DNA from: Luteimonas aquatica
GTDB lineage: Bacteria; Pseudomonadota; Gammaproteobacteria; Xanthomonadales; Xanthomonadaceae
Assembly: GCF_022662575.1 (NCBI RefSeq)
Contig: NZ_JALBFU010000003.1
Span: 310,879-374,878, forward strand
DNA: 64,000 bases
Direction: 5' to 3'
Shown here: in pieces, positions 1 to 4,561 of the stretch
Layout: each line of letters opens with the position of its first letter
Position numbering within the stretch: the first letter of the stretch is position 1
The notes under the pieces: generated by a model
Databases searched by the model: none
What the model was told of the DNA's origin: nothing
What the model saw: only the letters and a program-made list of their open reading frames with translations
Position numbers and translations under genes: made by a program

Positions 1-1
1 T

Positions 2-1282
2 CCCAAAGACCGCGATACCGTCATCCAATCCTTGCGTGCCGGCGTGGTTCCCCGCGCGGGGCAACATTTGATCCAGGTCGCTCGCGGCCGCGAAATTGAA
101 GCGCTGGTCGCGGATATTGACCGCGTCGCCGATGGCGGTTCGTCGTTTCGCTTCGTGATTGGCGAGTATGGCGCCGGCAAGACCTTTTTCCTGAACCTGA
201 TCCGCGCGATCGCGATGGAGCGAAAGCTGGTGGTGGCCAGCGCAGACCTCAATCCTGATCGTCGGCTCCACGCTTCCGGAGGCCAAGCCCGCTCGCTGTA
301 TGCCGAGCTCATGCGCAACCTGTCCACTCGGACCAAGCCTGAAGGCGGTGCGTTGGCCGGGGTGGTGGAGAAGTTCATCGCGACCGCCAAGTCCGAGGCT
401 AAGGCGCAAAGCAGCGCGACCGAGCAGGTCATCCGCTCCAAACTCGAACAGCTCTCCGAGCTCGTCAACGGCTATGACTTCGCTGAAGTTATCGCCGCCT
501 ACTGCCGGGGTTCTGAGGAAGGCAATGAGCAACTGAAATCCGACGCGATCCGCTGGTTGCGCGGCGAATTCTCCACCCGGACCGATGCTCGCGCCGCGCT
601 GGGCGTGAGGAGCATTGTCGACGACGCCTCCGTCTACGATCAGCTCAAGCTGGCGGCTCGCTTCGTGCGCTTGGCCGGCTACTCGGGATTGTTCGTGTGT
701 CTGGACGAACTGGTCAATATTTATAAGCTATCCAATACGCAGGCCCGTAGCTCAAACTACGAGCAGATCCTACGCATGCTCAATGATTCGCTTCAGGGCA
801 CAGCCGTGGGGCTAGGCTTCGTTCTGGGGGGCACCCCCGAATTCCTGATGGATCCGCGCCGCGGCGTTTACAGCTACTCCGCGCTGCAAAGCCGCCTGGC
901 ACAGAACGCCTTCGCAACCGGCGAGCTGGTCGACTACACGGGACCGGTCTTGCGCCTGTCGAGCCTGACCCTTGAGGATTTCTACCTGCTGCTGGGCAAG
1001 ATCCGCCATGTTTATGCCGGCGGCGACAGCGCGCGCTATCTGCTCCCCGACCCCGCCATCGCCACCTTCATGGAGCACTGCGCCAATCGCATCGGCGACA
1101 GCTTCTTCCGCACCCCTCGCACCACGATCACTTCCTTCATCAATCTGCTCGCCGTCCTGGAGCAGAACCCGGGCACGGAGTGGCAGAACCTGATCGGTGA
1201 GGTCACGGTTGAAGCCGATCACGGCGGCGACAGCGATCTATCGGTCGATCCGGACGACGAGTTGGCGTCGTTCAAGCTCTAA
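2..1282 (+). CDS. BrxD/DUF2791-family P-loop ATPase (5'-truncated), SngB- or BrxD-like
   Basis: The frame is open to the window edge. A TTG at 32 could serve as a start, but the codons before it read like the family's usual N-terminus (xxVIxxLRxGVVPRxG), so the true start is most likely just outside. The Walker A motif GEYGAGKT is encoded at 161-184 and a Walker B-like LFVCLDE near 685-710. A conserved FFRTPR segment lies near the C-terminus. The family supplies the ATPase of BREX type 2 (BrxD) and, as I recall, of Shango (SngB). The helicase gene follows after 7 nt, so the two are co-transcribed. Whether this is Shango or BREX depends on the next gene upstream, which is not in the window: a TerB-domain SngA or a PglZ. 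I am sure of the family, less so of the system. Confidence 0.85.
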   Translation, partial: PKDRDTVIQSLRAGVVPRAGQHLIQVARGREIEALVADIDRVADGGSSFRFVIGEYGAGKTFFLNLIRAIAMERKLVVASADLNPDRRLHASGGQARSLYAELMRNLSTRTKPEGGALAGVVEKFIATAKSEAKAQSSATEQVIRSKLEQLSELVNGYDFAEVIAAYCRGSEEGNEQLKSDAIRWLRGEFSTRTDARAALGVRSIVDDASVYDQLKLAARFVRLAGYSGLFVCLDELVNIYKLSNTQARSSNYEQILRMLNDSLQGTAVGLGFVLGGTPEFLMDPRRGVYSYSALQSRLAQNAFATGELVDYTGPVLRLSSLTLEDFYLLLGKIRHVYAGGDSARYLLPDPAIATFMEHCANRIGDSFFRTPRTTITSFINLLAVLEQNPGTEWQNLIGEVTVEADHGGDSDLSVDPDDELASFKL

Positions 1283-1289
1283 CCCGGCG

Positions 1290-3512
1290 ATGTCAGTCTC
1301 CAAAGCATTTCTGCAGCTGGATGCCCGGATCCAACACTACCTGTGGTCCGAGGGCTGGGGCGCGCTGCGTGAGGTCCAGGAACTGGCCATCCCGCTCATC
1401 CTGCCGGCAGACCAGGATGTTATCGTCGCGGCGAGCACGGCCTCCGGAAAAACCGAGGCAGCCTTTCTCCCGGCGCTGACTTACCTGCTCCAGCAACCTC
1501 AAGCCGGACTGATCGTCTACATCAGTCCGCTCAAGGCCCTCATCAACGATCAGTTCGGTCGTCTGGATCGATTATGCGAGAACCTGGATGTCCCGGTCTG
1601 GCCTTGGCACGGGGATATCACCGCAACCAGCAAACGCAAATTCCTGGCCAAGCCCGAAGGCGTGCTGCTGATTACCCCGGAGTCATTGGAGGCCACTCTG
1701 TGTAACCGCGGGACCAGTGTGGCGGGCTTGTTCGAAAACACCACCTTCGTGATCGTCGATGAGCTCCATGCCTTCATTGGTTCCGAACGCGGCAAGCAGC
1801 TCCAATCGCTACTGCATCGTATCGATGTGGCGCTAGGCCGTCACGTGCCGCGCATCGGGCTGTCGGCGACCTTGGGCGACATGAGCTTGGCCGCTCAATT
1901 CCTGCGGCCGGGCCGATCCGCTGCTGTGGTTGATACAGGATCAGCCGCCTCACCATTGCTCATCAAGGTCAAAGGCTATGAAGAACCGATCGAGTTCCGG
2001 GCAGCAGGATCACAGGCAGACGCGAACACCGTCCCGGCCTCGAAGGCCATCGCTCAGCACCTGTTCAAGGTCCTCCGAGGATCGAACAACCTAATCTTCC
2101 CCAACCGGCGTCAGGAGGTCGAACGCTACACCCACCTTTTGAATGATCTGTGCGAGCAAGCCAGGGTGCCCTCGGAGTTCTGGCCGCACCACGGCAACCT
2201 GTCCAAGGAAATCCGCTACGACACCGAAACAGCACTGAAGCAGCGCGAGCGCCCTGCTTCGGCCGTGTGCACCAGCACACTGGAATTAGGTATAGATATC
2301 GGGGCGGTCAAGAGCGTCGTCCAGATCGGCGTGCCGCCCTCGGTGGCCAGCCTACGCCAACGCCTGGGGCGGTCCGGCCGGCGGGAGGGCGAGCCGGCGA
2401 TTCTGCGCGGCTATGTGATTGAAGACACCCTGGATGAGCACTCCAGCCTCCAGACGCGGATGCGGATCGATACCGTGCAAACGGCCGCGGTGGTGTCCCT
2501 GCTCATCGAACACTGGTTCGAACCGCCGGCCGTGCGGGGCGCCCATTACTCCACCCTGGTTCAGCAGTTGCTGTCGGCCATCGCACAATACGGCGGCCTT
2601 ACCGCCGGACAGGCTTTCGCGCTGCTGTGCTCGCCCCACGCTCCTTTCGATGGCATTTCCACGGAAAGCTTCGCCGAACTGCTCAGGACCTTGGGACAGA
2701 AGGAAATTCTGATCCAGGACCACTCGGGGCTGTTGCTCCATGGACGGATCGGCGACCGGATCGTCAACCATTACTCGTTCTACGCCGCCTTCGCCAGCGA
2801 TGAGGAGTTCCGCATCGTGTCCGGCGACAAAGCGCTGGGAACGCTGCCGATTGTTCAGATGGTGTCGCCCGGCCAGCGCATCCTATTCGGTGGGCGGACT
2901 TGGGAGGTCCAGGATATCGACGAGGCCCACAAGACCATCTATGTAGCGCCCGCCAAGGGCGGCGCGCCGCCATTGTTCAGTGGCGGCATCGGACGGGTAC
3001 ATACGCGTGTTCGGCAGCGCATGCGCGAGCTCTACCTCGGCGATGAAACGCCCGGCTATCTGGACGGACAGGCGCAGCGCTTTCTCGATGAGGGACGGGC
3101 CGCCTTCCACAGTCTGGCCCTGGCTGACACGATCATGCTCAACCAAGGGAGCGACGCTCTACTGCTTACCTGGCTGGGCGATGCAGCCAATGAGGCGATT
3201 GCCTGCTTGCTGACGGCGCGCGGCGCCACCGCCTATGCCGCGAGCTTAGGGGTCGAGGTGCAGCGCTCCGGGCGCAGTCTGGACGACTTCGCAGACTTGC
3301 TGGCCGATATCGGTTCGGAGCCCACCCCCGCGGTCGACGACCTGCTCGCAAAGGCCAGCAACCTGGCAAAGCAAAAATGGGACGAGTTGCTGTCGCCCCG
3401 ATTGCTTCGAGAGACTTACGCGCGCTCCAACATCGATCTGGATGAGGCGATGGCCTGGATCCGCGCCAAATTCAGCGTCCGGTCGCCTGTTGAGACACCC
3501 TCATCGCCATGA
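1290..3512 (+). CDS. Lhr-like DEAD/DEAH-box helicase of a phage-defence operon (SngC/BrxHI-like)
   Basis: The predicted protein is 740 aa. The ATG at 1290 is chosen because it lies 7 nt after the ATPase stop and gives a family-like N-terminus; the longer frame reads into the upstream gene. Visible superfamily 2 motifs are a Q at about residue 30, STASGKT (49-55), DELH (157-160), SATLG (192-196), motif V TSTLELGIDIG (about 328-338) and motif VI QRLGRSGRR (about 357-365). The roughly 370 residues after the two RecA domains are the long Lhr-like C-terminal extension. ATP-driven remodelling of nucleic acid with the upstream ATPase is inferred from BREX type 2 and Shango. The stop codon overlaps the start of the K+ channel gene (ATGA), which indicates translational coupling. 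Codon use is unlike the chromosome to the right. Confidence 0.88.
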   Translation: MSVSKAFLQLDARIQHYLWSEGWGALREVQELAIPLILPADQDVIVAASTASGKTEAAFLPALTYLLQQPQAGLIVYISPLKALINDQFGRLDRLCENLDVPVWPWHGDITATSKRKFLAKPEGVLLITPESLEATLCNRGTSVAGLFENTTFVIVDELHAFIGSERGKQLQSLLHRIDVALGRHVPRIGLSATLGDMSLAAQFLRPGRSAAVVDTGSAASPLLIKVKGYEEPIEFRAAGSQADANTVPASKAIAQHLFKVLRGSNNLIFPNRRQEVERYTHLLNDLCEQARVPSEFWPHHGNLSKEIRYDTETALKQRERPASAVCTSTLELGIDIGAVKSVVQIGVPPSVASLRQRLGRSGRREGEPAILRGYVIEDTLDEHSSLQTRMRIDTVQTAAVVSLLIEHWFEPPAVRGAHYSTLVQQLLSAIAQYGGLTAGQAFALLCSPHAPFDGISTESFAELLRTLGQKEILIQDHSGLLLHGRIGDRIVNHYSFYAAFASDEEFRIVSGDKALGTLPIVQMVSPGQRILFGGRTWEVQDIDEAHKTIYVAPAKGGAPPLFSGGIGRVHTRVRQRMRELYLGDETPGYLDGQAQRFLDEGRAAFHSLALADTIMLNQGSDALLLTWLGDAANEAIACLLTARGATAYAASLGVEVQRSGRSLDDFADLLADIGSEPTPAVDDLLAKASNLAKQKWDELLSPRLLRETYARSNIDLDEAMAWIRAKFSVRSPVETPSSP

Positions 3513-4312
3513 GCACGCTGCACGAACGATTACAGCGCAGCACCTATATCGCCCTATTTGGACGCGGCGACGCCAGCGGGCTCACCCTCGCTCAGCTGAT
3601 CAGTGTTGTCCTCATCCTGACTTCCGTGACGGTTGCCGTGGTGGGCACTGAACCCGTGGTGGTCGCCGCCTTTGGACCCACGTTGCGTAACTTGGAGACG
3701 GGGTTCGTCATCGCCTTCTCCTTTGAATATCTGATGCGGCTTTGGGCGGTAGGGGCCAATCCCATCTACAAAGGGATGTCCGGTCGGATCAGATACGCGC
3801 TGAGCTTCTACGCACTAATCGATCTTCTGGCGATCATCCCCTTCCTATTCGGGTGGGGCGCCCAGTCTTTGCTGGTCCGTTTGCTGCGCTTGTTCCGGTT
3901 GCTGGCACTGTCCCGGTTGATCCGATACTCGCAGGCGATGCGGATCGTGCTCGGAGCCATGCTGGAGCGTCGCTACGAGCTGACCTTCTCCATGGCGCTA
4001 TCAGCATGCGTCATTCTGCTGTCGGCAGGCGTCCTCTATTCGGTGGAAGCCGACACCAATCCTGCGGCCTTCGGATCCATTCCGCGGGCGATCTGGTGGT
4101 CGGTGACGACCCTGACGACGGTGGGCTATGGGGACGCCGTTCCCCGGACTGTTCTTGGACGCGTGTTTGCGGCTTTGACTGCCGTCGCTGGCATTGGCCT
4201 AATCGCCATGCCCACCGGCATCTTGGCGGCAGCCTTCTCCCAGGCGTTCAAGAATGTCAAGGACCAGGATCGGACGCGAAGCCAAGGGCCAACCGGCAAT
4301 ACACAGTACTGA
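3509..4312 (+). CDS. Voltage-gated potassium channel (Kv type), coupled to the defence helicase
   Basis: The predicted protein is 267 aa and forms one six-TM ion-channel subunit. S1 is about 25-47, S2 61-80, S3 97-114. S4 is about 121-140 with regularly spaced R124, R127, R130, R136 and R140. S5 is 155-177, the pore helix and selectivity filter TVGYGD 204-209, and S6 222-245. It has the layout of KvAP/KvLm-like prokaryotic channels, with no RCK or cyclic-nucleotide domain; the short polar tail ends at 267. Its ATG overlaps the helicase stop, so it is read from the same message. Potassium selectivity and voltage sensing are directly suggested by the motifs. A role in defence, such as membrane depolarisation on infection, is inference from position only. 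It could instead be a passenger gene between the helicase and the tRNA. Confidence 0.88.
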   Translation: MSTLHERLQRSTYIALFGRGDASGLTLAQLISVVLILTSVTVAVVGTEPVVVAAFGPTLRNLETGFVIAFSFEYLMRLWAVGANPIYKGMSGRIRYALSFYALIDLLAIIPFLFGWGAQSLLVRLLRLFRLLALSRLIRYSQAMRIVLGAMLERRYELTFSMALSACVILLSAGVLYSVEADTNPAAFGSIPRAIWWSVTTLTTVGYGDAVPRTVLGRVFAALTAVAGIGLIAMPTGILAAAFSQAFKNVKDQDRTRSQGPTGNTQY

Positions 4313-4487: not shown

Positions 4488-4561
4488 TGGAGCGGGTGAT
4501 GGGAATCGAACCCACGCTAGCAGCTTGGGAAGCTGCAGTTCTACCATTGAACTACACCCGC
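4488..4561 (-). tRNA. tRNA-Gly (anticodon CCC), CCA encoded
   Basis: On the minus strand the sequence begins GCGGGTG and ends CACCCGC-TCCA, giving a seven-pair acceptor stem, discriminator U and encoded CCA (4488-4490). The anticodon stem GCAGC/GCTGC encloses the loop TTCCCAA, so the anticodon is CCC (4527-4529). The T arm carries GGTTCGATTCC. Its 74 nt and overall sequence resemble E. coli glyU. Its 3' end faces the island genes, as expected for a tRNA used as an integration site. Confidence 0.95.

Follow-up and report, generated by a model that had tools for sequence, protein, structure and literature searches.

The Shango operon and its fourth gene

Shango comprises three genes, whose products contain TerB, helicase and ATPase domains, and it protects PAO1 (PMC10250203, in the passages available). 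It is counted among the systems of unknown mechanism in the available part of a 2026 review (PMC12926258), and in the matching passages of PMC11096173 and PMC10121019 it is mentioned only in passing. In the present study, we analysed a stretch of 64,000 nucleotides from Luteimonas aquatica (contig NZ_JALBFU010000003.1, hereafter the window), in which a gene for a voltage-gated K+ channel (kv) follows the helicase gene of a defence operon. We found that the locus is a complete Shango operon with one extra gene, in the order sngA-sngB-sngC-kv. It shares with Shango of Pseudomonas aeruginosa PA14 cDHS1 the TerB-like SngA, the SngB ATPase and the SngC DEAD/DEAH helicase, all in the same order; the published system has three genes in the accessible text of PMC10250203, whereas here sngC is followed by a coupled Kv channel gene as the fourth.

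The operon begins just upstream of the window, and the contig sequence including this upstream part is numbered here as L003, with L003:14880 as window base 1. The genes sngA, sngB and sngC are adjacent on the plus strand (L003:12416-18391). The first of them, sngA, lies at L003:12416-14866, and its product was recognised by PADLOC as SngA (371 bits) and by Pfam through the TerB_N, TerB_C and TerB domains (198, 135 and 41 bits). The Shango ATPase gene sngB has its start codon at L003:14863, just before the window, and occupies window positions 1 to 1282 on the plus strand (PF10923 BrxC_BrxD, 513 bits). It is followed on the same strand by sngC at 1290 to 3512, which codes for a DEAD/DEAH Lhr-like helicase of 740 amino acids (DEAD 103 bits, Helicase_C 51 bits) and starts with the ATG at 1290, a longer GTG alternative at 1197 falling within sngB. 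The kv gene, coding for 267 amino acids, extends from 3509 to 4312 on the plus strand. The sngC/kv junction is an ATGA overlap of 4 nucleotides at 3509-3512, as a preliminary description of this DNA had read it; sngA and sngB are joined by an ATGA overlap as well, and sngB and sngC are 7 nucleotides apart. The GC content is 60-63% across the four genes, compared with 70.5% at window positions 5001-64000.

The assignment to Shango rather than to BREX type 2 was made because the upstream contig sequence supplies sngB together with an sngA carrying TerB domains. The preliminary description had called the helicase Shango/BREX2-type and had expected either a TerB-domain SngA or a PglZ upstream; the Shango half of the name and the TerB-domain SngA have stood, and the BREX half has not. 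BREX type 2 has a related ATPase and helicase, and SngB and SngC are indeed homologous to BrxD and BrxHI, as they would be if the locus were a fragment of that system. The Sng models score far higher, however, with 593 bits for SngB against 164 for BrxD in the ATPase and 887 bits for SngC against 404 for BrxHI in the helicase, and no PglZ or PglX family was found among the nine island or flanking open reading frames (ORFs) of at least 70 amino acids that were scanned with Pfam. With SngA directly upstream, BREX type 2 was ruled out, and a BREX fragment is extremely improbable. Protection against phages by this operon is predicted.

Judged from its sequence, the kv product has the six-transmembrane architecture. 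Pfam places Ion_trans (106 bits) over residues 30-247, with Ion_trans_2 at 62.5 bits, and among proteins of known structure it most resembles Kv4, KCNQ and Kv2/Kv1 channels (E about 1e-26 for the best match). The S4 segment contains the arginines R124, R127, R130, R136 and R139 (codons at 3878 to 3925, plus strand), and the TVGYGD selectivity filter is formed by residues 204-209 (4118 to 4135, plus strand). An alignment of 20 sequences, consisting of this channel and 19 hand-picked from 120 listed relatives, shows no variation at E73, D105, R124, R127, R130 and R139 or anywhere in the filter. After S6 there is a short tail only. The protein carries both a voltage sensor and a K+ selectivity filter, and a voltage-gated K+ current is predicted; the earlier claim of a complete Kv channel with S4 arginines and TVGYGD agrees with the domains, the solved relatives and the residue positions.

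The same four genes were found in Lysobacter enzymogenes (L023) in unrelated surroundings, so that a close homologue of the ATPase-helicase pair also carries the channel. When 44,879 bases of our contig were compared by blastn with the 19-kb L. enzymogenes region, a single alignment was obtained (L003:12351-19152, 85.8% identity). The aligned part starts 65 bp upstream of sngA and ends at window position 4273, which is 39 nucleotides short of the kv stop, and the rest is unrelated. The proteins are 87% (SngA), 97% (SngB), 92% (SngC) and 90% (Kv) identical, and the L. enzymogenes junctions A/B, B/C and C/kv are ATGA, 6 nucleotides apart and ATGA. The ratio of nonsynonymous to synonymous substitution rates (dN/dS) is 0.130 for sngA, 0.028 for sngB, 0.076 for sngC and 0.099 for kv, at a dS of 0.51-0.60. 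Purifying selection acts on kv about as strongly as on SngA and SngC. The single alignment spanning sngABC-kv and the low dN/dS of kv therefore show that channel and Shango travel together as a unit and that selection maintains the channel.

Among the matches listed in our literature searches, which had subscription papers outside their scope, there was no paper linking Shango to an ion channel, in keeping with the earlier statement that none was known for this system. Both words co-occur in PMC12926258, in unrelated passages of the accessible text, and in PMC6628048, by its title a bile-acid review. What is new here is a Shango with a coupled voltage-gated channel; the three-gene Shango and the class of Kv channels were already known. 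To this extent the locus is an undescribed system variant, as had been proposed: the coupled channel is real and is shared as a unit with L. enzymogenes.

Occurrence of the channel at Shango loci and elsewhere

The question of how often a Kv gene follows homologues of the helicase was addressed by a census of the best 80 of 94 confirmed sngC stretches in named genomes, limited to relatives sharing an exact 8-residue pattern. ORFs in the flanks, up to 7 kb on each side and less at contig ends, were scanned with phmmer. A Kv gene was present in the flanks of four of the 80 loci (L023, L052, L061 and L070). It lay directly behind sngC in two of the 74 loci with at least 900 nucleotides after this gene, being coupled in L. 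enzymogenes (offset -3) and adjacent in L052, a Rhodocyclaceae metagenome-assembled genome (offset +10). In L052 the A-B-C-Kv run ends with the channel; beyond it lies an ORF on the opposite strand, followed by lipA/lipB-like genes (named from their translations). This Kv is 37.6% identical to ours over 189 aligned positions and was placed far from it in another part of the Kv tree, on a very long branch that leaves its exact place unsure. The tree holds 71 of the 73 intended rows; L143 and L136, whose tblastn matches extend past the ORF ends, are absent, the L143 protein being represented as P0022 and L136 having no stand-in. Given this distance in both identity and tree, the recruitment of a channel behind sngC in L052 looks independent of the lineage studied here.

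The two remaining loci belong to a single Dokdonella genome. L070 contains all of Shango, and a related Kv (60% identity) lies in convergent orientation about 0.9 kb after its sngC; L061 is a partial copy in which sngC runs from residue 73 on, with no sngA or sngB detected; the two share 4967 identical bases up to the locus ends, Kv included. In a separate draw at order level, a SngC match was found in 19 of 397 genomes, our own included, and among the other 18 a Kv in the flank (up to 1.5 kb) occurred only in the same Dokdonella genome. Within the genus, two of 52 genomes had a SngC match; the second locus (40% identity, with SngB beside it) has no Kv in its flank. Kv-like genes as such were detected in 145 of the 397 genomes of the order (E<=1e-15), about 0.4 per genome. 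With 3700 genes and random strand, one would expect 0.004 Kv genes immediately after sngC in the 74 loci at 0.4 Kv per genome or 0.01 at 1 per genome, the latter allowing for the looser cut-off of the flank scan, and the chance of at least two is P = 8e-6 to 5e-5.

A same-strand ORF of any kind (at least 150 amino acids, starting -10 to +30 nucleotides from the sngC stop) was present in 13 of 74 loci, and a closely following ORF is therefore uncommon behind sngC. In Xanthomonas (L033:8094-8822 and L095), a conserved protein of 243 amino acids with three hydrophobic stretches and no Pfam family starts 13 nucleotides after sngC; it has 27 relatives, mostly in Xanthomonas and its kin, called "hypothetical" where named, and may be another accessory gene of Shango. 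In Acidovorax sp. NO-1 (L056), an SngA-like ORF lies behind sngC, and the scan found none ahead of sngB.

Relatives of the channel were also found next to other genes. In L133:8585-10935, L134:8292-10354 and L144:8030-10008, a Kv relative and a DUF4236 gene share 4 nucleotides, in either order, and the two form a possible two-gene module. The genome of L133 contains, in addition, another DUF4236 gene accompanied by a Kv-like copy with internal stop codons (L138, G282:C12:255000-272000). In L136:2583-9222, Kv lies 136 nucleotides behind a gene for a 1914-amino-acid DUF4011/MTES_1575/DUF3320 protein, for which PADLOC gives the candidate PDC-S37 at 1730 bits and Hhe at 711. A Kv relative adjoins an HSDR_N_2-like gene in L143 and L164, the domain match in L164 being below the Pfam cut-off. 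No partner could be recognised in L135, where the Kv has 47% identity. Overall, the partner pattern of this Kv clade is suggestive, short of established. HSDR_N-Kv as a general pair was rejected, as none of six other relatives of the L164 neighbour, drawn from 229 genomes, had Kv in their short flanks.

No viral relative of SngC or Kv was confirmed in viral_contigs. Partial, distant Kv-like matches were seen in 13 phage records (Listeria, Lactobacillus, Acinetobacter, Halorubrum and others), with at most 39.6% identity in the best 10 of the 13. Distant Kv genes occur in 103 plasmid records, all below 60% identity; four plasmid neighbourhoods inspected contained no annotated defence operon, and one SngC plasmid inspected carries Shango without an annotated channel.

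Role of the channel

We consider it likely that Kv is a real, translation-coupled accessory component of Shango, since the Shango is complete, the channel gene is coupled to it, the four-gene unit stands at two different genome sites, kv is under purifying selection, and a distant Kv has taken the place behind sngC in the Rhodocyclaceae genome. It is probably an uncommon add-on and not a fixed part. As to its role, we lean, by a little, to a rare four-gene Shango variant with a voltage-gated K+ channel, in which depolarisation-triggered K+ efflux would serve as a second arm of defence. That K+ efflux is what helps defence is a tentative proposal, with a less than even chance of being right.

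Shango probably works at the membrane, as is suggested by the hydrophobic N-terminus of SngA. There are two hydrophobic stretches there in our protein, from residues 6 and 26, and a simple hydropathy scan with crude start codons shows at least one ahead of TerB_N in 56 of 70 loci. In the proposed mechanism, SngABC would act at the membrane, and infection, or the action of Shango itself, would disturb the membrane potential. Depolarisation would then shift the S4 segment, the pore would open and K+ would leave the cell, and this loss may hold back the synthesis of phage or the growth of the host, giving the defence a second arm at the membrane. When the membrane depolarises, a K+-selective voltage-gated channel opens and drives the potential towards the K+ equilibrium; K+ is lost through it, but by itself it would neither collapse the potential nor depolarise the cell. 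On these biophysical grounds, a depolarisation-triggered K+ leak is preferred and protective repolarisation is its main rival. The preliminary description had proposed an abortive-infection effector gated by the ATPase-helicase sensor. This has not found support, as Pfam shows channel domains only and K+ selectivity speaks against simple permeabilisation; gating of the channel by the helicase sensor is possible.

In the repolarising alternative, Kv opens when the action of SngABC or phage entry depolarises the cell, and K+ efflux restores the potential and spares the host. This is the expected behaviour of such channels, the filter and S4 are intact and SngA is mostly predicted to be membrane-anchored; yet the depolarisation of cells by Shango is an assumption, and a Kv is missing from most Shango loci examined, so that we regard this alternative as unlikely. 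The abundance of Kv-like genes in the order and the mere two cases directly behind sngC would also suit a common gene that landed there by chance and has been carried along with no part in defence. Such a passenger is hard to reconcile with an exact four-gene unit at two sites, with the dN/dS of kv and the retained coupled start, or with a distant Kv in the same slot of another lineage, and it appears quite improbable. A further view is that the Kv clade is a stand-alone mobile cargo gene that couples to various partners, Shango being one of several hosts. The overlaps with DUF4236 genes, the place behind the PDC-S37-like protein and the HSDR_N_2-like neighbours, one of them below cut-off, all point this way; against it stand the six L164-neighbour relatives without Kv and a sample that is small and was picked by Kv similarity, and we know of no function for DUF4236. 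We hold this view to be rather doubtful.

Several results weigh against the second-arm reading itself. The fetched flanks of 76 of the 80 sngC loci contain no Kv, and Shango therefore does not need the channel; in P. aeruginosa the three genes are enough for defence, according to the passages available from PMC10250203. The coupled cases are two only, one of them in the lineage of the query, and without that lineage the single case left has P(>=1) of about 0.004-0.01. The nearest listed Kv relatives (P0001-P0013, 71-94% identity) have no readable genomic context. At class level, 12 hits besides our own were obtained among 369 genomes, and the nine neighbourhoods inspected, by eye from translations, are mostly housekeeping-like. 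Furthermore, Pfam found no partner-binding or other extra domain in Kv.

In a broader and unlikely generalisation, immune systems that sense nucleic acids would recruit Kv channels as an effector or safety module. Distantly related Kv genes would have entered the position behind sngC on two or more occasions, and relatives of this clade overlap or stand behind other, partly defence-like genes (the PDC-S37/Hhe-like helicase-nuclease and DUF4236). If this were true, membrane voltage would be an input signal of bacterial immunity.

The tRNA-Gly site and comparison with known systems

Behind the operon, a tRNA-Gly(ccc) was identified by ARAGORN at 4488 to 4561 on the minus strand, its 3' end facing kv. 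A 22-nucleotide piece of this end (4489 to 4510) recurs with 1 mismatch at L003:748-769. The site was compared in 29 genus loci, those returned for 50 other genomes matching the neighbouring gene (51 of 52 including our own), of which 28 have tRNA-Gly(ccc). The left-border sequence L003:705-769 aligns over the tRNA 3' border in five of the 29 (L178, L184, L191, L194 and L197), and the Zn_protease gene at L003:91-573 was found near the same tRNA in L178 and L182; L003:800-19300 aligns to none of the 29. Since repeats flank the stretch, its left border meets the tRNA elsewhere in the genus and its interior has no counterpart there, the segment of about 18.6 kb that these repeats enclose resembles an island at the tRNA-Gly 3' end. 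None of the 29 loci has a Kv gene at this site, and the idea that Kv is a long-standing neighbour of the tRNA was rejected. With the channel present beside a close homologue in L. enzymogenes and absent from these tRNA sites, neither of the outcomes that the preliminary description had named as refuting was obtained.

The larger ORFs of the island code, by Pfam, for ABC/MacB-type transporters, a lanthionine-synthetase-like protein, an ABC exporter, a Dyp peroxidase and two proteins without a family; no integrase was recognised among those scanned. At L003:5959-10937, a RamC_N-kinase-LANC_like protein (class III lanthionine synthetase type) and an ABC exporter form a putative lanthipeptide-like cluster that shares the island with Shango, and a short ORF without a Pfam family upstream of the RamC_N-kinase-LANC_like gene could be the precursor.

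A natural Shango with a coupled Kv offers a direct handle, through defence, toxicity and membrane potential, on a system that the available part of PMC12926258 counts among those of unknown mechanism. If the channel matters, phage sensing would be tied to membrane voltage through a protein class with well-understood biophysics. With other six-transmembrane Kv channels of the Ion_trans family, the protein has S1-S6, the S4 arginines and TVGYGD in common; here, in contrast, the gene sits in a defence operon and is translated with it. In RexAB of phage lambda, an intracellular sensor is paired with a membrane ion-conducting protein. The likeness to the present locus lies in this combination of sensor and membrane ion conductor; RexB is no Kv channel. 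Zorya resembles the locus in bringing a membrane unit together with nucleic-acid enzymes; in Zorya, however, ZorA-ZorB is a core 5:2 complex (PMC11890865), whereas Kv is optional here.

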